Below, piece by piece: positions 49,740 through 61,315 of a stretch of DNA of 64,000 nucleotides. The translations under genes were made by a program, and so were the position numbers. The first letter of the stretch is position 1. Every line of letters begins with the position of its first letter. This DNA comes from Chloroflexia bacterium SDU3-3 (GTDB lineage Bacteria > Chloroflexota > Chloroflexia > Chloroflexales > Roseiflexaceae). The notes under the pieces were generated by a model. It was not told where the DNA came from, searched no databases, and saw only the letters and a list, made by a program, of their open reading frames with translations. The DNA is taken from contig WBOU01000003.1 of the NCBI GenBank assembly GCA_009268125.1, forward strand, positions 310,001-374,000. The letters are read 5' to 3'.

Positions 49740-49798
49740 TGCGCATATGCGCACGTGCGGCCGCAAAACGATACAATCTCCGGCAGGTATGGTATAAT
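49740..49798 (+). promoter_or_regulatory. promoter region of the hydrogenase-like operon
   Basis: ATGGTATAAT (49789-49798) is an extended -10 with TG before the hexamer, 31 bp before the GTG start. Upstream lies a perfect 14-bp palindrome TGCGCATATGCGCA (49740-49753), a candidate operator. Confidence 0.6.
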
Positions 49799-49829
49799 AC
49801 GCGCCCTGAAAAGGAGAACTGGAGGGCGC

Positions 49830-50906
49830 GTGAGCTATTCCCTTGCGCTTGGTCCGTTCCACCCTGCGTGGCGTGGGCCACAGCGCCTCATACTGCGTGT
49901 TGACGGCGAGCGAATCGCCGATCTTGAATATCGCGACGGCTACAACGAGCGCGGCATCGCCGACCGGCTTGCGCGGCTCGATCTCCCACAGGCCCTCTAC
50001 CTCGCCTCCCGTGTGTGCGGAACATGCTCGTTTGCCCATAGCCTAGCCTTCTGCCAAGCGATCGAGTCGCTGTGCGGGCTGGAGGTGGGCGAGCGGGCGG
50101 CGATGCTGCGCGTGGCCGCCGCCGAGCTTGAGCGGATCGGGTCGCACCTGCTGGCGGCGGCGATGCTGCTGGAGAGCCTGGGGCTGGAGCAGGCGGGCGG
50201 CAGGCTGCGCGCCCTGCGCGAGCAGGGGCTGGGCCTGATGGCGCGCGTGAGCGGGGCGCGGCTTGCGCCCGACCTGTGCGTGCCCGGCGGCGTGCGGCGC
50301 AACCTCGCGGCCTCGGACCGCGAGGAGGTGCTGATCGCGGTGCCGAAGCTGAACCGCGGGCTGTACGCCCTGATCGAGTCGCTGATCGACCAGCGCTCGC
50401 TGCTGGCGCGGGCGGTGAACGTGGGCGCGCTGCCCAAGACCGCCGCCGAGCAGTACGGCGTGCGCGGCCCGCTGGCCAGGGCCTCGGGGATCGCGCGCGA
50501 CCTGCGGGCCGACCACCCCTACGCGGCCTACAACTCCCTGCCGTTCCGGGTGATCACCCAGGATGGCGGCGACATCTACGCACGGCTGCTGGTGCTGCTG
50601 CTAGAGGCGTTCGAGAGCGTCAAGCTGGTAGAGCTTGGGCTGCAGAATCTGCCGATGGGCGACTGGCAGGGCGAGATCCCACGAAAGCTACAGCAGGGCC
50701 AAGCCTCTGCCGCCACCGAGGGGCCGCGCGGCCTGATCCGCTACACCATCGAGAGCGACGGCGAGCGGCTCAAGCAGGTGCGGATCGATGCGCCACGGCA
50801 GCTCGACCGGCTGCTGGCGCGCACGATGCTGGCGGGCGCGCTGCTTGATAACGCGGTGCCGATCATCGCCTCGTGCGATGTATGCACGGCCTGCGCGGAA
50901 CAATGA
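49830..50906 (+). CDS. group 4 [NiFe]-hydrogenase-like large subunit
   Basis: 358 residues, GTG start with GGAGG. L1 motif RVCGTCSFAH (Cys63, Cys66, His70) and L2-like C-terminus CDVCTACAEQ (Cys352, Cys355) supply all four Ni ligands; an extra Cys349 precedes them. GPRGLIRY is the conserved active-site Arg segment. The chain ends two residues after C-A, so there is no tail for a maturation protease. Closest to HycE/EchE/CooH-type subunits without the NuoC domain. Heads six genes (49830-56063) for one membrane complex. Activity is unproven: the final His/Arg of L2 is Gln. Confidence 0.88.
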   Translation: MSYSLALGPFHPAWRGPQRLILRVDGERIADLEYRDGYNERGIADRLARLDLPQALYLASRVCGTCSFAHSLAFCQAIESLCGLEVGERAAMLRVAAAELERIGSHLLAAAMLLESLGLEQAGGRLRALREQGLGLMARVSGARLAPDLCVPGGVRRNLAASDREEVLIAVPKLNRGLYALIESLIDQRSLLARAVNVGALPKTAAEQYGVRGPLARASGIARDLRADHPYAAYNSLPFRVITQDGGDIYARLLVLLLEAFESVKLVELGLQNLPMGDWQGEIPRKLQQGQASAATEGPRGLIRYTIESDGERLKQVRIDAPRQLDRLLARTMLAGALLDNAVPIIASCDVCTACAEQ

Positions 50907-52642
50907 TAGCACTACTGATTTTCACACTACCGCTGCTGGCGATGATCGCCTGCCTCGCGCTCAACCGCCTTGTCGACACCCGCGTGCTGGGCCTCGGCGG
51001 CGCGGCGGTGATGCTGATCGCCGCCGGGCTGATGGTGATGCAGCGCGAGCAGGGCGACGGCACACTGCTGACGCAGCCCTGGATCAGCCTGGATGGCCAG
51101 GATATGGTGGCCACGCTGCGGCTCGACGCCGCCAACACGCCGCTGGCGCTGGTGGTGGCGCTGGGCGGCGCGCTGGCGCTGGCGGCGCTGGCGCTGGCGC
51201 TGCCGGCCAAGCTGCGCGGCTACGGCAGCATGATCGCCGCGCTGCTGATGCTCTTTGTCACCACGCTCACCGGCCTAGTGCTGCAGGACATGCTGCTGGG
51301 CGTCATCCCATGGGCCGCGTTGCCGCTGCTGGGCTTTATCGCCCTGCGGTCGAGCGGCGGCCAGAACGAGGCCCAGGAGCTGCCGGTCGGCCTGCTGGGC
51401 AACCTGCTGGGCGCGGTGATGCTGCTGGGCGCGCTGCTGAGCGTGCGCTTCGCCCCCGTGGGCACGGCGGTGCCCGGCATGACCCTACTGGGCCTGCTGG
51501 TGGCATCGCTGCTGGCGCTTGGCCTGCCCCCCTTCCACCGCACCACCCACGACATGGCGCTCGGCCCGGCCAACATCGCAGGCCCGCTGATGGGGCTTGG
51601 CCTGCCGCTGCTGTGCGGCTTTCTGCTGACGCGCTTTATGACCCAGAACGCGCTGCCCGCCGAGTGGCGAGCGGCGCTGCAGATCGCTGGGCTGGCCGGG
51701 GTGGTGATCTGCGCGGCTGCGGCGCTGCGCGAGCGGCGGCTGCGGCGGCTGGCCGGATGGCTGGCCAGCACCCAGATGGGGCTGCTGCTGATCGTGCTGG
51801 GCCTCGATCCGGCGGTGGTGGCCGCCATCGCCCCGGCGCTGCAGATCAACGCGGCGCTGGTGACGCTGACCGCGCTGCTGGCGGTGGCGCTGATCGAGCG
51901 CAGCACCGGCACCGATAGCATGGATGAGATCCGCCTGGGTGCGCCGATGCTGCTGCCCGCGCTGGCCTTCTTCCTGGCCGCAGCCTCAGCGGTGGGCGTG
52001 CCCGGCACCTGGGGCTTCTGGATCATGCGCTGGCTGCTGACCGAGCTGGTTGGCGCGCGCCCGCTGCTGATCGGCCCGCTGCTGGCGGGCATGGCGCTGT
52101 TTGGCATGGCCTGGCTCGCGCCGCTGGCCGCATTCCTGCGCGCCCCGCACACCCAGCAGGCCGCGCCCGCCGGTGCGGTGCACGCGCTGCCGCTGCTGGG
52201 TGCGCTGCCGCTGGTGCTGTTCGGCATCGCGCCGGGGCTGGCCTGGGAGCGCTGGGGGGCCGCCGCCCGCACGGCGCTGGTCCCGCACAGCAGCGCCGCC
52301 GCGCCGCTGCTGCCCAGCCTGCCCGAGATGCTGGCCTGCGCACTGGCCCTGCTGGCCCTGATCGGCGCGCTGGTGGCGCTGCGGCGCAGGAGCGCGCGCA
52401 AGACCGTGGCCGACCCCGAGCTAGAGCCAGGCGGCGTGATCACGCCCGACGCGCTAGGCGAGAGCCTGGGCGCGATTGGCTGGCTGGGTGCGCCGACCGA
52501 TTTGTTCACGCAGCTGTGGGCGGGGATGGTGGCGCTGAGCAGCCGGATCGGCTGGGCGCTGGCCTTCTTCGAGCAGCGCTATTTTATGGCAGGGCTGATG
52601 CTCGCGCTTGTGGCGGTCATCCTGCTGCTGCTGCAAAGGTAG
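50903..52642 (+). CDS. complex I/hydrogenase antiporter-like membrane subunit (NuoL/HyfB-type)
   Basis: 579 residues, ATG overlapping the large-subunit stop (ATGA). About 14-16 TM helices, mostly Leu/Ala-rich. LGLPPFHRTTHDMALGPANI corresponds to the central PFHxxxxxA(x)P loop of antiporter-like subunits, but many charged residues of the proton path are missing or shifted. A hydrophilic stretch near 490-540 precedes a last TM helix, as in long NuoL-like proteins. Confidence 0.8.
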   Translation: MIALLIFTLPLLAMIACLALNRLVDTRVLGLGGAAVMLIAAGLMVMQREQGDGTLLTQPWISLDGQDMVATLRLDAANTPLALVVALGGALALAALALALPAKLRGYGSMIAALLMLFVTTLTGLVLQDMLLGVIPWAALPLLGFIALRSSGGQNEAQELPVGLLGNLLGAVMLLGALLSVRFAPVGTAVPGMTLLGLLVASLLALGLPPFHRTTHDMALGPANIAGPLMGLGLPLLCGFLLTRFMTQNALPAEWRAALQIAGLAGVVICAAAALRERRLRRLAGWLASTQMGLLLIVLGLDPAVVAAIAPALQINAALVTLTALLAVALIERSTGTDSMDEIRLGAPMLLPALAFFLAAASAVGVPGTWGFWIMRWLLTELVGARPLLIGPLLAGMALFGMAWLAPLAAFLRAPHTQQAAPAGAVHALPLLGALPLVLFGIAPGLAWERWGAAARTALVPHSSAAAPLLPSLPEMLACALALLALIGALVALRRRSARKTVADPELEPGGVITPDALGESLGAIGWLGAPTDLFTQLWAGMVALSSRIGWALAFFEQRYFMAGLMLALVAVILLLLQR

Positions 52643-52652
52643 GGGCCGAGCG

Positions 52653-53357
52653 ATGCTCAATATTCCTGTGATCGGCATCGGGCTGTGCTGCGCGGCCATC
52701 CTGCTGCTGCGCGACTGGCGCTTTACCGTCTCGGCGCTGCTGCTCAACTACCTGTGCCTAGCCTGGTTTTTCACCCAGCAGCAGTTTCTCGCGCCCGACC
52801 TGGTGCTGGGGCCGCTGCAGCTGAGCACCACTGTGCTGGTGAAGGTGATCACCGGCATGGCCGCCGCGCTGATCCTGGCGATCACCGGCCTGACCTTCTC
52901 GCGCGAGTACAACACCGAAGATCTCGACGAGTTCTCGCTGGCCGAGCTGCGGCGGGCCGCGCGGCGCGCCCAGCGGTCGAGCGAGCCGTTCCGCATATCC
53001 GATTATGTCGTGCCGTTCTGGTCGCTGCTGCTGGCGATCATCGCCGCCATGCTGCTGCCGCAGCTCTACCCGATCGCCAACACCTACGCCACCAACTTCG
53101 CATGGTACTGGCTGGGGCTGACCGGCATGTTCACGCTGGTGGGCGCAAGCGACCTGCTGAAGATCGGCCTGGGCCTGCTGCTGTGCGTGGCCAGCATCGA
53201 CGTGCTGTACACCGCGGTGGCCAGCCAGGTGCAGGTCTTCCCGCTGGCCATGCTGAGCCTGCTGACCATCGTGCTGGCGCTGGCGATCGCCTACCTGAGC
53301 GGCCTGCTGTACGGGCGGCTGAAAACGCTGGACCTGGGCGAGCTATACCGCAAGTAG
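52653..53357 (+). CDS. HyfE/NuoK-like membrane subunit
   Basis: 234 residues. TM helices at ~5-20, 25-45, 60-85, then a charged loop (EDLDEFSLAELRRAARRAQR) and four more helices. The C-terminal part LVGASDLLKIGLGLLLCVAS to ALAIAYLSGLLYG resembles NuoK/MrpC and HyfE. Eleven bases after the antiporter subunit. Confidence 0.7.
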   Translation: MLNIPVIGIGLCCAAILLLRDWRFTVSALLLNYLCLAWFFTQQQFLAPDLVLGPLQLSTTVLVKVITGMAAALILAITGLTFSREYNTEDLDEFSLAELRRAARRAQRSSEPFRISDYVVPFWSLLLAIIAAMLLPQLYPIANTYATNFAWYWLGLTGMFTLVGASDLLKIGLGLLLCVASIDVLYTAVASQVQVFPLAMLSLLTIVLALAIAYLSGLLYGRLKTLDLGELYRK

Positions 53358-53397
53358 TTCGGTGCGGCGGGAGACCGCGCGCGCCGCAGAGCGAGCT

Positions 53398-54861
53398 ATG
53401 TCATATCTTCTTCTGATCCTGTTCCCGATAGCCATGAGCGCCAGCGCCTTCCTGCTGCGCAAGCAGACCCAGTTTGTGGCGCTGGCCGCCATCGCCACGG
53501 CCCTAACCGAGCTGGCGCTGGTGAGCACCGTGCCGGTGGACGAGCCTGCGCGGCTGCTGGGCATGACCATGGTGCTCGACCCGCTCAGCAGGCTGTTCCT
53601 GGTGGCCTTCGCGGTCATCGCTATGGTGGCCTTCGCCGCCTCGATCTGGCTGCCGCACGGCGAGAACTTCGCGCCGATCGGGCTGATCCTGCTGTCATTC
53701 ACCAATGCCACGCTGCTGCTGCTGCAGGAGCCATTTGTGGTGGCGCTGCTGCTGATCAGCGGGGCGGTGCTGGCCGTGCTGGCGATCGTCGATCTGCCCA
53801 CCGGAAGCCCGCTGCTGGTGGGTAAAAAATCGCTGGCGGCGGCGCTGAAGTACCTGGTGCTGATGGTGATCGCAGGCGTGATGATGTACTTCGCCTATGT
53901 ACTGGTGAACATCTACGAGGACACCGGCACATCGCAGAGCTTCACCACCGCGCAGCTCATTCTGGCGCTGTTCGCTGTGGGCTTCGGCCTGCGCCTGGCG
54001 CTGGTGCCCTTCCACTCGTGGCTGCCCGACATGACCGAGATCGCCGCGCCCATGGTGTCGATGATCATCATCACGGTGATCAACGCCACCAGCCTGCTGG
54101 TGCTGATCAGCACGCTGCAGTTCTTCGGGCCGATCATCCTGAGCGGCAACGACATGGGTGTGCAGGTCTTCCAGGTGCTGGGGATCGCCACATGTGTGGC
54201 CGGGGCAGGGCTGGCGCTGGCCCAGCCGAGCCTACGGCGCATGCTGGGCTACCTGATCGCCTACGACGCGGGCATGATCATGTACGGCTTGACGACCATG
54301 AGCAGCATCGGGCTGGCTGGCGCGATCTTCGAGACCTTCAACCAGCTGGTGGTGGTGGCCCTGCTGTTCCTGAGCCTGGCGCTGCTGGAGCAGCCCGACG
54401 GGCGTCCTTCCAACGTGGCGCGGCGCGACCTGCTGCGGCGCTGGCCGATCGCCGGGGTGGGCTTTCTGGTGGGCGGGCTGGCGCTGATCGGCCTGCCGCC
54501 CTTCAACGGGTTCGCCAGCAAGCTGCTGATCTACCAGGCCGCCGCGCAGGATACCCTGCCCGCCGCGCTGCCGCTGCTGCTGCTCTCGACCGTGCTGGCG
54601 CTGCTGGCGCTGGGCAAGGTGGCCTACGAGCGGCTGCTGGGGCCGTCGGAGGACGAGCCGGTGGAGGAGTCGCCGCTGCTGCTGGGCGAGATCAATCTCG
54701 ATCAGCTTGCGCCGCGCAAGCTCTCGCCCGAGCCGCGCGGGCTGGCCGCGCTGGTGGTGGTGCTGGTGGCCGCCTGCCTGGTGATCGGCATCTACCCGCA
54801 GCCGGTGCTGGCCACCATCAACGATGTGATCCAGGGGCTGACATTTATCCGCGCGTTGTAG
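53398..54861 (+). CDS. NuoN/HyfF-like proton-pumping membrane subunit
   Basis: 487 residues, about 14 TM helices. ALKYLVLMVIAGVMM contains the conserved Lys, GLRLALVPFHSWLPDMTEIA is the core antiporter loop, and LIGLPPFNGFASKLLIYQA the later conserved half-helix with Lys. More canonical than the subunit at 50903, so a better candidate for ion translocation. Confidence 0.85.
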   Translation: MSYLLLILFPIAMSASAFLLRKQTQFVALAAIATALTELALVSTVPVDEPARLLGMTMVLDPLSRLFLVAFAVIAMVAFAASIWLPHGENFAPIGLILLSFTNATLLLLQEPFVVALLLISGAVLAVLAIVDLPTGSPLLVGKKSLAAALKYLVLMVIAGVMMYFAYVLVNIYEDTGTSQSFTTAQLILALFAVGFGLRLALVPFHSWLPDMTEIAAPMVSMIIITVINATSLLVLISTLQFFGPIILSGNDMGVQVFQVLGIATCVAGAGLALAQPSLRRMLGYLIAYDAGMIMYGLTTMSSIGLAGAIFETFNQLVVVALLFLSLALLEQPDGRPSNVARRDLLRRWPIAGVGFLVGGLALIGLPPFNGFASKLLIYQAAAQDTLPAALPLLLLSTVLALLALGKVAYERLLGPSEDEPVEESPLLLGEINLDQLAPRKLSPEPRGLAALVVVLVAACLVIGIYPQPVLATINDVIQGLTFIRAL

Positions 54862-54869
54862 AGGTGGCC

Positions 54870-55241
54870 ATGGCCGATACGATCAAAATCTATCGAATGA
54901 ATACCGGCTCGTGCGGCGGATGCGACGCCGAGCTTGACGCGGCGGTGTTTCTGAACGCCGATCTGGCATGGACATCCGACCCGCTGGAGGCCGACGTGCT
55001 GGTGCTGACCGGGCCGCTGACCGCCACTAGCAAGCCCGCCTTCATGGCCACGTGGCAGGGCCTGGCCGAAAAGGTGCCGCTGGTGGCCGTGGGGCGCTGC
55101 TCGATCGACGGCTACCCCTACGGGCGGGGCGGGCTGGCCGACAACCCCGATGTACAAGCGACGATCAAGATCGATGGGTGCCCGCCCGAGCCAGCGGCCA
55201 TAGCCGCCGGGCTGCGCGAGAGCCTCCATCGGCCCACATAG
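54870..55241 (+). CDS. [NiFe]-hydrogenase/complex I small subunit (NuoB-like)
   Basis: 123 residues. Four cysteines for the proximal [4Fe-4S] cluster: NTGSCGGCDAEL (C15, C18), VGRCSIDG (C77), DGCPPEP (C104). Shorter than NuoB but similar to EchC-type subunits, with no twin-arginine signal, so it faces the cytoplasm. Would pass electrons to the large subunit. Confidence 0.9.
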   Translation: MADTIKIYRMNTGSCGGCDAELDAAVFLNADLAWTSDPLEADVLVLTGPLTATSKPAFMATWQGLAEKVPLVAVGRCSIDGYPYGRGGLADNPDVQATIKIDGCPPEPAAIAAGLRESLHRPT

Positions 55242-55250
55242 GCACTGTCC

Positions 55251-56063
55251 ATGAACGAACTTGTTGCACTGCTGATCTTCCCCGGCCTGCTGTTCACGCT
55301 GGCGCTCGCGCTGGCGCTTGGTATGCTGTTCCAGCGCAAGCTCGCCTTCCGCCCGCGCCTGCCCGACTTCAGCTTCGAGAGCGCGGCGGGGGCGATCAGC
55401 GTGGTGCTGGCGGCCTGCGCCAACGCGCTGCTGCCCTGGCCGCTGGCTGGGGCGGGCAAGGCCGCGCTGGGCGGGCCGGTGGCCGCATGGCTCGCGCTTG
55501 AGGGCGCGTTCCTGCTGCCGCTGCTGCCCGGCCTGCTCTCCAGCAGCCCGCTGGTGAACCGCGCCACCATCCGCGAGGCCCAGATCGGCTTGGCGGGACG
55601 CAGCGTGGTGTGGCTGGCGGCGGGCACGCTGCTGTGGATGCCTGGGCAGATCAGCCTGGGCAGCCTGCCCGGCTGGGCGCTGCTGGGCGTGGGCGCGCTG
55701 CTGGCGCTGCCCGCCGCCATGGGCTTCGGCCCGTTCGCCGCCGAGCGCACGCTGGCGCTTGAGGGCGCGGAGCACGGCCTGGACGAGGCCACCGCAGGGC
55801 TGCTGCGCTTCGCCCGCACGGCGCGCGGGGCGGTGCTGCTGGCGGCCACCCTGCTGGCCCTGATCCCACGGGCGCAGTTTCGCCCACAGCTGGCCCTGCT
55901 GGTGTGGGTGGCCGCCGCCGTGGTCGCGGCGCTGGTGCTAGAGCGGGTGGGGCGGCGCATGCCGCGCATGGCGCTGCCCAGCGCGCTGCGCTGGTGCTGG
56001 TGGCGGGCCATGCCCACCGCCGCCATCGGCCTGCTGTACCTCGCGATCATCGCCCCCGGCTAG
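55251..56063 (+). CDS. NuoH/HycD-like membrane anchor subunit
   Basis: 270 residues, about 7-8 TM helices. MGFGPFAAERTLALEGAEHG corresponds to the PFD-(x)-EAExE loop of NuoH, with part of the acidic cluster kept. It would anchor the soluble arm to the membrane. Last gene of the cluster, 9 bp after the small subunit. Confidence 0.78.
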   Translation: MNELVALLIFPGLLFTLALALALGMLFQRKLAFRPRLPDFSFESAAGAISVVLAACANALLPWPLAGAGKAALGGPVAAWLALEGAFLLPLLPGLLSSSPLVNRATIREAQIGLAGRSVVWLAAGTLLWMPGQISLGSLPGWALLGVGALLALPAAMGFGPFAAERTLALEGAEHGLDEATAGLLRFARTARGAVLLAATLLALIPRAQFRPQLALLVWVAAAVVAALVLERVGRRMPRMALPSALRWCWWRAMPTAAIGLLYLAIIAPG

Positions 56064-56143: not shown

Positions 56144-57226
56144 ATGGCAGCTATTGAGCTAGAAAATCTCTACAAGGCCCACCACGGCGCGTTCGTCATC
56201 CAGGGCCTCAGCCTCACCATCGAGCCAGGCGAGACCTATGGGCTGCTGGGGGCCGAGGGCGCGGGCAAAACCACCCTGCTGCACATGCTGCTGGGACTGC
56301 AGCGCCCGCAGCGCGGCAGCCTGCGCGTGCTCGGCACCACCAACCTTGGCCGCAATATCGGGCGCGTGGGCTACCTGCCCCAGCAGCTGCAGCTGCAGCC
56401 TGCGTTCTCGGGGGCGGCCCACCTGCAGATGCTCGGCAAGGCCGATGGCATGCGCGGCCCGCTGCTGGCCCAGCGCACCCACGAGGCGCTGGAGCGCGTC
56501 GGGCTGCTGGGGGCCGCGCACCACCCGGTGGAAAACTACACGCTGGCCATGCGCCAGCGGCTGGGGCTGGCCCAGGCGCTGCTCGGCCAGCCGGCCTTGC
56601 TGCTGCTGGACATGCCCGCCGCGCGGCTGGCCGACGACGACCGTCGCAGCATGCTGGCCCTGCTGGCAAGTCTGCGCGAGCACGGGGTCACCGCCCTGAT
56701 CGCATCCGACCACCCCGACGACCTAGCGCATACCTGCGACCGCGTCGGTATCCTGCACCGGGGCCGGATCGCCGCCGAGGCCGAGCTGGCGGCGCTGGGC
56801 GCGCTGGCCCCCAGCGTGCGCATCGCGGTGGGCGAGATCGCCGAGATCACCGCCGAGCGCCTGGCCCGCCTCTCCTCGGCAGTGCAGATCAGCCCGGGCG
56901 CGATCGACATTGACCCCAACACCCAGCAGCTCCAGGCCCGCGTGCTCAAGATCTTGGTCGACGCCCAGATCGACATCTACCGGCTGGAGCCGCAGGTCGG
57001 CCCGCTGGCCGCGCTCTTCCGCCGCGTGCTAGGCGGCGAGGATGTGGGCCCGGCCTTTACGCCGCGCGCCGACATGGCCGATGAGACCGAGCAGGCCCCG
57101 CCCAACAGCCTCTTCGCCCCACCGGGGCACCCCGACACGCTTGAGCAGGCCCAGGCCGCGCCCGCGCACGAGGGCGAGACAGTCGCGCAGGAGCTGCCGT
57201 CGGAGGAAAAACATGAGCTTCTTTAG
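56144..57226 (+). CDS. ABC transporter ATP-binding protein with altered Walker B
   Basis: 360 residues. Walker A LLGAEGAGKTTLL (35-47) and H-loop ALIASDHPDD are intact, but the signature is LAMRQRLGLAQ rather than LSGGQ, and Walker B reads LLLLDMPAARLADDD with Met where the catalytic Glu should be. ATP hydrolysis may be slow or absent. The last ~120 residues are a variable tail with Pro/Glu-rich end. Overlaps the permease gene by 14 bp. Starts 80 bp after the hydrogenase-like cluster; whether related is unknown. Confidence 0.85.
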   Translation: MAAIELENLYKAHHGAFVIQGLSLTIEPGETYGLLGAEGAGKTTLLHMLLGLQRPQRGSLRVLGTTNLGRNIGRVGYLPQQLQLQPAFSGAAHLQMLGKADGMRGPLLAQRTHEALERVGLLGAAHHPVENYTLAMRQRLGLAQALLGQPALLLLDMPAARLADDDRRSMLALLASLREHGVTALIASDHPDDLAHTCDRVGILHRGRIAAEAELAALGALAPSVRIAVGEIAEITAERLARLSSAVQISPGAIDIDPNTQQLQARVLKILVDAQIDIYRLEPQVGPLAALFRRVLGGEDVGPAFTPRADMADETEQAPPNSLFAPPGHPDTLEQAQAAPAHEGETVAQELPSEEKHELL

Positions 57227-57977
57227 CCGACTGGGCAGCTACACGGGGTTCCTGCTGGCATCCTACATCCGCTCGGGCCGCATCGCTGTGGAGGCCGTGG
57301 CCACGCTGGTGATCTACGCCATGCTGTTCCGGCCCGGCGTCAGCCTGCTGCTGGCGGGCGAGTTCCACGCGATCGCCGCTATGTGCATGCTGACGCTGTC
57401 GTTCTACACCTCGGTGGTGCTGATGGGCCAGTGCGACCGCCCCCAGGCCTACCTGCTGCTCACACGGCGGATCGGGCGCAGCGGCTACCTGCTGGCCCAC
57501 TACATCAGCTCGCTGATCATCACCAGCGGGTGCTACCTGGCGCTCTCGGCGCTGTGCGCAGCCACCCGCTCGGTGTCGGGCTTCACCCTGGCCGCGTGGG
57601 CGCTGGGCAGCCTGCCGCTGCTGCTGAACGTGGCCATCCTGGCCGCCGCCGTGACGCTGCTGGCCCCGGCGGTGCTCTCCACCTCGTGGCGGCTGGTCAT
57701 CCTCGCGGGCGTGGTGCTGGCCTTCTCGGAGTCGATGTTTAGCACCCAGACGCTGCGCGACATGCCGCCGCTGCTGCTGCGCATCCTCGACCTGCTGCAG
57801 CTGGTCTTCAGCATCCCCCTGCTGCCCGTGCTCACCGGGTTTGCGCTCGCCGCCAGCCACGACTACCGCGGCGCGGCCATGGCCATCCCCTTCGCCCAGG
57901 TCTCGCTGATGCTGGGGCTGCTGGGGGCTGCGCTGTTCGTCTTCAGCCGACGCGAGATCACTGTGCGCGACGCCTAG
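57213..57977 (+). CDS. ABC-2-like membrane protein
   Basis: 254 residues with GGAGG at the start and about six TM helices (e.g. 20-45, 55-80, 100-125, 150-200, 210-250). No sequence motifs beyond overall ABC-2 permease character. Partner of the ATPase that overlaps it. Substrate unknown. Ends at a strong terminator. Confidence 0.75.
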   Translation: MSFFSRLGSYTGFLLASYIRSGRIAVEAVATLVIYAMLFRPGVSLLLAGEFHAIAAMCMLTLSFYTSVVLMGQCDRPQAYLLLTRRIGRSGYLLAHYISSLIITSGCYLALSALCAATRSVSGFTLAAWALGSLPLLLNVAILAAAVTLLAPAVLSTSWRLVILAGVVLAFSESMFSTQTLRDMPPLLLRILDLLQLVFSIPLLPVLTGFALAASHDYRGAAMAIPFAQVSLMLGLLGAALFVFSRREITVRDA

Positions 57978-58048: not shown

Positions 58049-58672
58049 CTACTTCAGCAGCGCGCGCAGCTCGTTTGCAAACACCTCGGCGGGCGTGCCA
58101 AACGGGAAAAGCATGCGCAGGCTGCCCTCGGCATCGATCAGGTAGGTGACCGCCGAGTGATCGACCAGATAGCCCGCCGAGGTGCCCTTCACATCCTGCT
58201 GCTGGAAGTACAGCCCGTAGTCGGCCCCGATCTTGCGCAGCGTGGCCTCGTCGCCAGTCATGCCGATGAAGCTGGGGTCGAAGCTCTGCACATAGTGCTT
58301 CAGCAGCGCGGGCGAGTCGCGCTCGCCATCCACGCTGATAAACAGGTAGCGGACCTTGTCGCCATCTGCGCCCAGCAGCCGCTTGGTATCGCGCAAGTCG
58401 ACCAAGGTGGTCGGGCAGACATCGGGGCAGTGGGTGTAGCCAAAAAACAGCAGGATCGGCTTGCCGCGCAGGTCGCTCAGGCGCATGTCGCTGCCATCCA
58501 TGCTGGTGAGGGTAAAATCGTGCAGGGCGCGCGGCGGGTTAACCGCCGAGCCGCCCGTGATCTCGGGGGTCGCGATCTCGTCGGCGGAGGCCGCGCCGCC
58601 CTGGCAGGCCGCCAGCAGCAGCGCCGCCAGCAGCGCCGCCCAGATACGCCAGAGGGATGCTTGCTTACACAT
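58049..58672 (-). CDS. Sco1/SenC copper chaperone lipoprotein
   Basis: 207 residues. Lipoprotein signal with Cys23 (LLLAAC). Thioredoxin fold with GYTHCPDVCP (Cys82, Cys86) and a later VDHS His for copper. Delivers copper to the CuA site of cytochrome oxidase subunit II, encoded upstream in the same operon. Overlaps the preceding small gene by 8 bases. Confidence 0.95.
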   Translation of the reverse strand: MCKQASLWRIWAALLAALLLAACQGGAASADEIATPEITGGSAVNPPRALHDFTLTSMDGSDMRLSDLRGKPILLFFGYTHCPDVCPTTLVDLRDTKRLLGADGDKVRYLFISVDGERDSPALLKHYVQSFDPSFIGMTGDEATLRKIGADYGLYFQQQDVKGTSAGYLVDHSAVTYLIDAEGSLRMLFPFGTPAEVFANELRALLK

Positions 58673-58979
58673 GGGGGTGCGATCTCTTGCTACGCTGGAA
58701 GAGCCGCGCGATCCGCCCGCCCCAGGCCAGCAGCGCCGCGCCAGCGACCACCGCCGCCAGGCTCAGGCAGATCATCAGCGGCATCAGCAGGGGGCTGCGC
58801 GACGGAGCGCCGCAGATAAAGCGCCACACCGCGCCCGGCGCGCTGGTGAAGGCCGAGAGGTCTTGGGTGTAGGCACCCACCATCACCAGCATCATCAGGC
58901 CAAAGCAGATCAAGCCCACGCCCACGATCTGGGGCACGACCGATGGCGCTGGGGCGCGGCGCTCATGATTCGCGGTCAT
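58665..58979 (-). CDS. small membrane protein of the cytochrome oxidase operon
   Basis: 104 residues, two TM helices (about 17-38 and 63-87). Not a known oxidase subunit by sequence, but its place between subunit I and sco, with the 8-base overlap, suggests an oxidase-associated role. Confidence 0.7.
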   Translation of the reverse strand: MTANHERRAPAPSVVPQIVGVGLICFGLMMLVMVGAYTQDLSAFTSAPGAVWRFICGAPSRSPLLMPLMICLSLAAVVAGAALLAWGGRIARLFQRSKRSHPHV

Positions 58980-59038
58980 AAAAATCCTAACCAAGCATCC
59001 GCCACCGGGCCGATCCCCCGTGGCGGATGCTGCCATGC

Positions 59039-60745
59039 CTACTTGAGCGGGTTTGGCACAAACGGCGTGTAGCCCGGCGAGGCGAACGTGCCCAGCGCAT
59101 CGGCCACCACCGGCAGCCAAGCCACGGCGGCCAGTACCAGGATAATGCCGACCCACAGGCCCCAGCGCTCTAGCCACAGCGGCGAGCCAGCAGGCCCCAC
59201 CGTGTCCACCGGCGCACCCTCGGTCACTGGCTCCTTCGAGAAAAACAGCGTGCCCACTAGGTTCACCAGCAGCAGCACCAGGCTGATCAGCAGGATCACG
59301 CCCGAGATCGCCGAGGTGTTGAGGAAGAAGGCCGCATCGGGGTTTACATACGGCGCGTTGCTCAGGTCGGTGCGGCGCGGCACCCCCGCAATCCCCGCAG
59401 CGCCCATGCCGTGGCCGAAGATCAGCATGCCCACCAGCCAGGTGTAGATCTGGGCTAGCGCCACCTTCTTGCTCCACAGCGCGCGGTTGCGGATCAGCGG
59501 CACGATCCAGTAGGCGATGCCGATATACGTCAGCGTCACTGCGCCCGCCAGCGTCATGTGGAAGTGGCCCGGCACCCACGAGGTGTTGTGCAGCGCGATG
59601 TTCAGCGTCAGCGAGGCCTGGATGATGCCCGAGAAGCCACCCGCGATGAACAGGATCATGCCCGCCAGCTGCGCGGCCACCACCGGGTTACCAAAATCCT
59701 GGTGCCACAGCCAGTCGAGCGCCCGCCGCGCGCCGCGCTGCCGCCCGGCCCGCTCCAGCGTCGCCCCGATGTTAAACGCGGTCAGGAAGCTGGGCACCGC
59801 CACCACAAACGTGAACACGGTGTGGATGCCCTTCATCACGCTGCTGACGCCGGGGTCCGAGAACAGGTGGTGCACGCCCACCGGCACCGAAAAGATCACC
59901 AGCATCAGGAAGGCCACGCGGGCCAGGCCATCGCTGAACAGCTTGCTGCCCACCTGCTTGGGCAGCATGGTGTACCACGAGATATAGGCCGGGATCAGCC
60001 AGAAGTACACCAGCGGGTGCCCGAAGAACCAGAACAGCACGCGGCCCATCTGCGGGTCGGTGGTCTTCAGCCAGCCCAGCGAGAGCGGCAGCAGCATGAA
60101 CAGCACCTCGACCGCCACGCCGAAGGTCGCCACGATCCACATGATGAAGTTGGCGATCGCCGCAAACACCGCCAGCGGCACCCGCTCGCCGGGGTGCTCC
60201 TTCCGCCACGCGGCGTAGGTCATGAACACATTCGCGCCCACCAGCCACGAGCCGACCACCAGCAGCACCAGGCCGATGTAGAAGGTCGGGTGGGCCACCA
60301 GCGAGGGGTAGAAGGTGTAGAGCACCGACGCCTGCCCCGAGCCGATGGCGAAGAGCACCAGCGCCAGCCCCACAAACATCATGGCGTACGAGACCCAGGC
60401 CAGCGTGCGGTTCCACAGCGGGCGCTCCAGCGAGCGCTGGGTGATAAAGTAGGTGAAGCCGACGATAAAGAACGTGGTGAAGAACAGCGCGTTCATCACG
60501 CCGTGGATGGTGAGCGCCTGATAGTAGAAGCTAAAGAACGGGATCTGCAGATCGGGGAAGGCCTCCTTCACAAACGGCGAGCGCCGGAAGGTCTGAAACG
60601 GCCCCATCAGGCTGCCGAGCAGCAGCGCCAGCATACCAGTGAGCACATGCGCGCCAACAAGGGTGCGCTCTTCCATCAACATTGCGAGCTTCGGGAAGGC
60701 GAGCGACGAAGGCTGCCGCTGGGGAAGCGGCGAGGCAACCTGCAT
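59039..60745 (-). CDS. cbaA: ba3-type (B-family) cytochrome c oxidase subunit I
   Basis: 568 residues, about 13 TM helices. Heme and CuB ligands are present: IHGVMNALFF (low-spin heme His), FFGHPLVYFWLIPAY (CuB His with cross-linked Tyr), GVHHLFSDPG (CuB His pair), HNTSWVPGHFHM (high- and low-spin heme His). The D-channel residues of A-type oxidases are absent, as in B-type enzymes, which have high oxygen affinity. Operon: IIa, II, I, small protein, Sco. Confidence 0.95.
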   Translation of the reverse strand: MQVASPLPQRQPSSLAFPKLAMLMEERTLVGAHVLTGMLALLLGSLMGPFQTFRRSPFVKEAFPDLQIPFFSFYYQALTIHGVMNALFFTTFFIVGFTYFITQRSLERPLWNRTLAWVSYAMMFVGLALVLFAIGSGQASVLYTFYPSLVAHPTFYIGLVLLVVGSWLVGANVFMTYAAWRKEHPGERVPLAVFAAIANFIMWIVATFGVAVEVLFMLLPLSLGWLKTTDPQMGRVLFWFFGHPLVYFWLIPAYISWYTMLPKQVGSKLFSDGLARVAFLMLVIFSVPVGVHHLFSDPGVSSVMKGIHTVFTFVVAVPSFLTAFNIGATLERAGRQRGARRALDWLWHQDFGNPVVAAQLAGMILFIAGGFSGIIQASLTLNIALHNTSWVPGHFHMTLAGAVTLTYIGIAYWIVPLIRNRALWSKKVALAQIYTWLVGMLIFGHGMGAAGIAGVPRRTDLSNAPYVNPDAAFFLNTSAISGVILLISLVLLLVNLVGTLFFSKEPVTEGAPVDTVGPAGSPLWLERWGLWVGIILVLAAVAWLPVVADALGTFASPGYTPFVPNPLK

Positions 60746-60826
60746 GACAATACTCCTTCTAGACCAAGCTACAAACGCCTCGGTGCGATTCCTAGGGAAG
60801 AAGGGAACCAGCCATAGGTGTGGACG

Positions 60827-61315
60827 CTAGGCATCCACGATAATCGTGGCGATCATGTTCTGGTGGCCCGAGCCGCAGTACTCGTGGCAGATGATGTGGT
60901 AGGTGCCGGGCTTTTTGAAGGTGGCCTTCTCGCGGGCGATCTGGCCGGGCAGCAGCATCATGTTCATGTCGTGGTGCTCGATGTAGAAGCCGTGCGTGAC
61001 ATCCTTGCTGGTTACCACGAACGTTACCTCGGCGCCCTTGGGGATGTGGATCTCGGCGGGCTTGCCCTTGGCCTGCCCCAGGTCGAACTGCCACATCTTG
61101 GCCACCACGTGCAGCGTGTACTGGTTGTCGCCCATCGAGCGCAGGCCGGGCGTGGCGAACTCGGTGCTGTCGAGCTGCATCGGGTCTACGCGGCCCACCG
61201 GGCTAGGCAGCGTGACGCCGAAGATGAACACGCTGGCCAGCAGGGCCGCCGAAAAGACGCCCAGCGTTCCAGCAACCGCGTAGATCCAGTAGCGCTCAAG
61301 ACGGTCGATGTACAT
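60827..61315 (-). CDS. cbaB: ba3-type cytochrome c oxidase subunit II
   Basis: 162 residues: one TM helix (about 10-35) and the cupredoxin domain. CuA ligands His108, Cys143, Cys147, His151 and Met154 (CHEYCGSGHQNM). Short form with a single TM helix is typical of the ba3 group. Receives electrons from cytochrome c or a copper protein. Confidence 0.95.
   Translation of the reverse strand: MYIDRLERYWIYAVAGTLGVFSAALLASVFIFGVTLPSPVGRVDPMQLDSTEFATPGLRSMGDNQYTLHVVAKMWQFDLGQAKGKPAEIHIPKGAEVTFVVTSKDVTHGFYIEHHDMNMMLLPGQIAREKATFKKPGTYHIICHEYCGSGHQNMIATIIVDA

Follow-up and report, generated by a model that had tools for sequence, protein, structure and literature searches.

A putative H2-inactive relative of group 4 hydrogenases encoded beside an ABC transporter in Chloroflexales

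A single mechanism is held to be common to group 4 hydrogenases, Mrp antiporters and complex I: proton transfer along conserved Glu/Lys pairs, powered by a redox module. Residues of the TM5 Glu/TM7 Lys type have been reported to be key to proton transfer (PMC10212512) and to be absolutely conserved and essential (PMC7419157). The Ehr (energy-converting hydrogenase-related) complexes lack the ligands of the NiFe center, and no function is known for them (PMC6349859, PMC10284858); examples are GSU0739-0745 of Geobacter sulfurreducens and the complexes of comammox Nitrospira (PMC8691401, PMC6349859, PMC10284858). In Geobacter, Ehr combines a large and a small subunit with NuoL-like and HyfE-like ones (PMC8691401), and a layout of six subunits without a ferredoxin subunit is already known for Ehr (PMC8691401, PMC6349859).

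In this work we have analyzed a cassette of hydrogenase-related genes in a 64,000 nucleotide stretch of the Chloroflexia bacterium SDU3-3 genome (contig WBOU01000003.1, positions 310,001 to 374,000), here called the window. Our best explanation, to which we assign a probability of roughly 0.55, is that the cassette encodes an H2-inactive "pseudo-hydrogenase" membrane complex of Chloroflexales which does not pump protons by the complex I/Mrp route. The complex has probably taken on a different role, perhaps in concert with the adjoining ABC transporter.

Gene content, distribution and phylogeny

The six genes CL, L1, K, N, S and H are intact, tightly packed and all on the plus strand (Table 1), and the same order recurs in dozens of genomes, which excludes chance. 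An earlier sequence-only reading had recognized these six genes, including both cysteine pairs of the large subunit and the four cluster cysteines of the small one, all of which we confirm; it set the start of the unit at 49740, ahead of the actual first codon, the GTG of CL at 49830, and it missed two more genes of the unit, for an ABC ATPase and a permease-like protein, which overlap each other and extend the unit to 57977. CL carries the motifs RVCGTC (C63/C66) and DVCTAC (C352/C355) and ends without a C-terminal extension past the CxxC. It is named Complex1_49kDa and NuoD-like by Pfam and NCBIfam, and its best PDB matches are HycE (188 bits), MbhL (161 bits) and NuoD (129 bits or less). 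The cluster cysteines of S are C15, C18, C77 and C104 (CxxC..C..C); the protein is named Oxidored_q6 by Pfam/NCBIfam and a profile of its relatives finds MbhJ (E 4.5e-18).

Table 1. Features of the window and of other loci discussed in the text (positions in the window unless a locus is named)
Feature	Position	Strand	Remarks
CL, group 4-type hydrogenase/NuoD-like large subunit	49830..50906	+	358 aa; GTG start
CL codons of C63 and C66	50016-50018, 50025-50027	+	
CL codons of C352 and C355	50883-50885, 50892-50894	+	
L1, divergent NuoL/MrpA-like membrane subunit	50903..52642	+	579 aa; without TM5 Glu and TM7 Lys
K, membrane subunit in the HyfE position	52653..53357	+	234 aa; conserved motif LDEFSLAELRRAARRAQR
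N, NuoN/MrpD/HyfF-like membrane subunit	53398..54861	+	487 aa; Arg199 in place of TM7 Lys, without TM5 Glu
S, small [Fe-S] subunit	54870..55241	+	123 aa; four cluster Cys
H, NuoH/HycD-like membrane subunit (by predicted fold)	55251..56063	+	270 aa
ABC ATPase, ABC-2 type, DrrA/GldA-like	56144..57226	+	360 aa
Permease-like membrane partner of the ABC ATPase	57213..57977	+	254 aa; no family match
SCO1-like protein, cytochrome oxidase subunits I and II	58049-61315	opposite	downstream of the unit
S-H-ABC-permease second loci	L179 8744-11761; L180 2495-5625		Herpetosiphon-type genomes
CL with all four ligands lost (SADD)	L047 7313-8386		genome G051
N split into two overlapping frames	L042 11187-12624, 12606-13010		Herpetosiphonaceae MAG G048
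Plasmid Ehr-type operon, six genes	L218 873-8659		Candidatus Methylocalor cossyra
Plasmid Ehr-type operon, six genes	L219 1472-8634		Paraburkholderia aromaticivorans

The membrane subunits proposed in the sequence-only reading stand for the most part. N is named Proton_antipo_M by Pfam/NCBIfam, and L1, which gives only weak matches in NCBIfam, is identified by a profile of its relatives (MrpA, E 4e-23; MbhH, E 4e-21). H has no naming match in Pfam or NCBIfam; its NuoH-like character holds by predicted fold (AlphaFold pLDDT 90), for which the best Foldseek hit is ND1/NuoH (E 6.7e-5) and HycD gives a TM score of 0.68. The NuoK/HyfE-like assignment is weakly supported: K, the best conserved of the cassette's markers, gives nothing worth naming in Pfam or NCBIfam and matches no PDB sequence or fold, and what points to such a subunit is its operon position before N together with a profile match to HyfE that is collinear but weak (E 0.07). 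The operon contains neither a ferredoxin-like nor a NuoC-like subunit, nor genes of a NADH module, and no extra conserved gene of the ferredoxin type appears in the clustered neighborhoods of relatives. A promoter scan found nothing. The SCO1-like and cytochrome oxidase genes downstream were not seen beside the cassette in the relatives examined.

Cassette-type CL is present in 56 of 60 related genomes, the window's own genome included (CL search, E 2e-66 or better, weaker matches being NuoD-type proteins of complex I), and two of the four remaining genomes (G012 and G041) have other cassette genes. Scanning with K identified 63 public loci with a named source. Every one of them lies in a Chloroflexales-type genome, and together they span Roseiflexus, Chloroflexus, Oscillochloris, Chloroploca, Viridilinea and Herpetosiphon. 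Two loci titled Singulisphaera sp. GP187 (L097) and Thermoflexus hugenholtzii JAD2 (L118) carry a Roseiflexaceae-type cassette and are likely mislabelled MAGs. When 400 genomes of the phylum were searched, strong K matches were confined to Chloroflexales; a single more distant relative turned up in a different order of the same class (G319). Other Chloroflexota classes have pairs of K-like and N-like genes (L171-L178, L182, L183) with no detectable large or other redox subunits nearby, possibly a membrane-only module; a NuoL-like gene accompanies the pair in L172, where it precedes it, and in L177 (the L1 profile found only the latter, that of L172 being a Pfam antiporter match). Some of these pairs adjoin housekeeping genes (lgt-like, glycyl-tRNA synthetase-like). 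Our search of the open-access literature found no published description of the Chloroflexales cassette.

The position of CL was addressed with an IQ-TREE phylogeny of 78 large subunits, 40 of them from the cassette, which covers part of the HydDB subgroups and, for Ehr, two proteobacterial Ehr-type proteins other than those of Geobacter and Nitrospira. A branch supported at 100/99 separates all 40 CL proteins from HycE/HyfG, from MbhL and NuoD and from two further group 4 clades of Chloroflexota. Some 30 other group 4-like proteins of Chloroflexota fall outside the CL clade; the deeper branching order is weak (54/66). Two proteobacterial Ehr-type large subunits branch with HyfG and not with the CL clade. 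The kinship with group 4 hydrogenases as a separate lineage, which the sequence-only reading had suspected, is thus borne out, CL falling neither inside an Ech/Hyf subgroup nor within complex I.

Metal site, small subunit and pump residues

At positions 63/66/352/355, CCCC is found in 26 of the 39 CL proteins sampled, that of the window among them. Cysteines are swapped or lost in the other 13, with CHCC in four proteins (family f2), CDCC in five (the Herpetosiphon group and G048) and CCSC, CSCC, ACCC and SADD in one each, so that 35 of the 39 have a metal-capable set of Cys, His or Asp at all four positions. Few columns of CL are more conserved than 63, 352 and 355 (entropy percentile 0.09-0.11), and H70, E101 and R102 near the metal site are nearly or fully invariant. 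Residue 66 is the counterpart of a bridging cysteine of [NiFe]-hydrogenases; a His or Asp at this position would suit a mononuclear site better than a Ni-Fe one. In the genome where CL reads SADD (G051), S keeps its four cysteines and HypD is present.

The four cluster cysteines of S are kept in 16 of 18 sequences, which speaks for a continuing role of electron transfer in some of the Chloroflexales and counts against our best explanation. S is missing genome-wide in Chloroflexaceae g12, g16, g17 and g21 (most genera), single-contig genomes included, and also in G006; searches in the S-free genomes are answered only by NuoB proteins of complex I. Most CL proteins of the S-free Chloroflexaceae are still CCCC, so the cluster subunit and the metal ligands have been lost independently. 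In the MAG G048 all cluster cysteines of S are lost, which together with its split N represents either decay or sequencing error. CL and S are least eroded in the lineage of the window, where residual electron transfer is possible.

The antiporter-like subunits were aligned with 11 references (E. coli NuoL, NuoM, NuoN, HyfB, HyfD, HyfF and HycC, and four Ehr-type subunits). The TM5 Glu is present in 11 of 11 references vs none of 37 cassette N proteins, and the TM7 Lys is replaced by Arg in 36 of the 37; the N alignment is well anchored by PFHSWLPD, and these losses were repeated in an alignment with other sequences. In L1, which is divergent and weakly aligned so that its TM5 and TM7 columns are less certain, the TM5 Glu is found in none of the 37 residues listed (38 proteins aligned) and the TM7 position is hydrophobic in at least 36 of 38. 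Across the cassette antiporter-like subunits the TM8 Lys is absent and the TM12 Lys/Arg is mostly kept. With both TM5 Glu and TM7 Lys missing from the sequences, canonical proton pumping by the complex appears unlikely, and the suggestion of a redox-driven ion pump in the usual sense fails.

These data bear on a second explanation, that the complex is still a redox enzyme in which soluble ferredoxin or another donor feeds the [4Fe-4S] cluster of S and, through it, a non-NiFe site of CL that reduces some substrate, with a membrane arm coupling ion movement via other residues and with Chloroflexaceae having lost S and changed function later. It draws on the cysteines of S, the complete ligand set of the window's CL, the conservation of H70, E101 and R102 and the TM12 Lys/Arg and TM7 Arg retained in N. 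Taken as a joint claim it is nevertheless unlikely, since the operon has no ferredoxin-like subunit or other donor, S has been lost where the CL ligands stay, and the pump residues are lost throughout the order, in S-bearing members as well.

The ABC pair

Downstream sequence was sufficient at 31 cassette loci, and at 27 of these an ABC ATPase gene follows H; the four exceptions all belong to family f2, where the ABC genes are not beside H. Herpetosiphon-type genomes have CL-L1-K-N at one locus and S-H-ABC-permease at a second (Table 1), and counting these second loci the ATPase follows H in 29 of 33. Loss of S, H and ABC in Herpetosiphon was ruled out by the whole-genome searches which found them there. 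The best evidence for counting the ABC pair as part of the system is that S, H, ABC and permease have remained together where the operon is divided, although as gene neighborhood it falls short of proof of a complex. In the ATPase of the window the Walker B motif reads LLLLDMP (vs LLLIDEP) and the signature YTLAMRQR (vs LSxGxxQR), i.e., the Walker B glutamate and the signature motif have been lost, while most orthologues are intact. Judged by these motifs the ATPase is probably dead (ATPase-defective) in this lineage, and the ABC side may therefore be non-hydrolytic in the window's genome. A link to gliding by way of the GldA-like scores of the ATPase was considered unsafe in view of generic ABC similarity.

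The f2 loci without ABC beside H and the dead-looking ATPase count against our best explanation, and they also weigh on a third one, in which the complex transports ions or small molecules along a path unlike that of complex I, either passively or by ATP-driven conformational change of the ABC transporter. The ABC pair as customary operon partner, with its catalytic motifs preserved in most members other than that of the window, is consistent with such transport, as are the K-N pairs of other Chloroflexota classes, two of them with a NuoL-like gene, around which redox subunits were undetected. With no known substrate or specificity to add, we regard it as improbable. Still less can be said for a decaying, functionless relic: ligands, S and ABC motifs have indeed been lost stepwise in different lineages, but the reading frames are intact, the gene order is conserved across a bacterial order from which the cassette has not been lost as a whole, and K is 38-77% identical to the K of the window with many invariant charged residues.

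Hydrogenase status and comparison with known systems

No match to HypD was found in the window's genome, which is 100% complete by estimate (positive controls were used), and matches to HypE and HypF were far below cut-off. The sole PF00374 match in this genome is CL itself, below cut-off, and there is no other [NiFe] large subunit. In a genome without HypD, HypE and HypF a [NiFe](CN)2CO center is not to be expected. HypD is present in 30 of 60 relatives, and most HypD carriers encode a further, separate [NiFe] large subunit. In ten of the sampled genomes CL retains its four cysteines although HypD is missing, two of which (G003 and G019) are under 85% complete. It should be noted that G006 is HypD-negative and yet has a separate PF00374 protein, so that in an individual genome a missing HypD may reflect the assembly; the pattern of absence over the Herpetosiphon and g8 genomes is independent of G006. 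The complex is almost certainly not a hydrogenase. A new subgroup of true group 4 [NiFe]-hydrogenases, although suggested by the four cysteines, the RxCGxCxxxH and CxxC motifs and HycE and MbhL as top PDB matches, is hardly credible given the missing Hyp proteins, on which we reject hydrogenase identity, the His or Asp at position 66 in two families, the absence of S from another and an order-wide pattern of the cassette which does not track HypD. The sequence-only reading was correct that the complex has no ferredoxin-like or NuoC-like subunit and that no hyp gene lies in the window, the absence of HypD, HypE and HypF holding genome-wide, and its doubt about hydrogenase status was justified; its label of a minimal group 4 hydrogenase is not supported. 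CxxC/CxxC motifs alone are no basis for annotating a [NiFe]-hydrogenase.

At the level of sequence the comparisons establish descent from group 4-type large, small, NuoH-like and antiporter-like subunits, with loss of the pump residues throughout and of S and single ligands repeatedly. From this we infer, for the H2-inactive complex that we favor, that the old Ni-Fe pocket would hold a simple metal ion (Zn or Fe, with four C/H/D ligands) in a structural or sensing role, that the membrane arm would be a scaffold or transport partner physically associated with the ABC system rather than an energy converter, and that in S-keeping lineages the [4Fe-4S] cluster may still carry electrons to the CL metal site. 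More tentatively, the cassette could represent a hydrogenase/complex I superfamily member that is fully out of redox-driven ion pumping, combining a simple metal, a non-pumping arm and, as structural or regulatory partner, the ABC-2 transporter which most Chloroflexales keep. What is new is a separate lineage in which features of redox function and of pumping have been lost step by step and in which the operon is linked with an ABC transporter; we found no such clade (Hyp-free, with ligands kept or modified, pump residues lost and an ABC link) in the open-access literature. The architecture is kept while Hyp maturation, the cluster subunit S and individual metal ligands have gone in different lineages and the pump residues throughout, which makes the Chloroflexales clade a natural series for the uncoupling of redox function, metal binding and ion pumping. 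Several of its members (Herpetosiphon, Chloroflexus) are in culture.

Among known systems Ehr is alike in its hydrogenase-like large and small subunits, its NuoL-like and HyfE-like subunits and in not being expected to be a hydrogenase; the set of large, small, NuoL-, NuoH-, HyfE- (K, weakly) and NuoN-like subunits without a ferredoxin subunit is common to both, so that the novelty claimed for this layout does not hold while that of the lineage does. Ehr complexes are ligand-free by definition, whereas most cassette members keep the ligands or swap one for His or Asp, and the antiporter-like subunits of the proteobacterial Ehr-type complexes examined keep the TM5 Glu and TM7 Lys which those of the cassette lack. 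The two plasmid operons of Table 1 have no ferredoxin subunit, no NiFe cysteines and no ABC pair. An ordinary Ehr was rejected on the ligands kept and on the tested Ehr-type proteins lying elsewhere in the tree. E. coli Hyc/Hyf (group 4a) supplies the closest solved large subunit, HycE, and the HycD-like fold predicted for H; the cassette differs in having no formate dehydrogenase link, no ferredoxin-like HycB/HycF, no NuoC-like domain and no Hyp proteins, and in its loss of the pump residues. Similarity to Mbh of Pyrococcus furiosus (group 4d) extends over MbhL, MbhJ as best match of S and the MrpD-like N, but no Mrp small subunits were detected among the six genes, CL forms its own clade, and TM5 Glu and TM7 Lys are missing. 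With complex I the cassette shares common ancestry of CL and NuoD, S and NuoB, H and NuoH, and N and L1 with NuoL-M-N. The window's genome has two separate nuoD-type loci. A complex I paralogue was rejected on the clade of its own and the missing quinone-site residues: unlike complex I, the cassette has no NADH module, and CL has Arg15 and Gly64 where Nqo4 of T. thermophilus has His38 and Tyr87.
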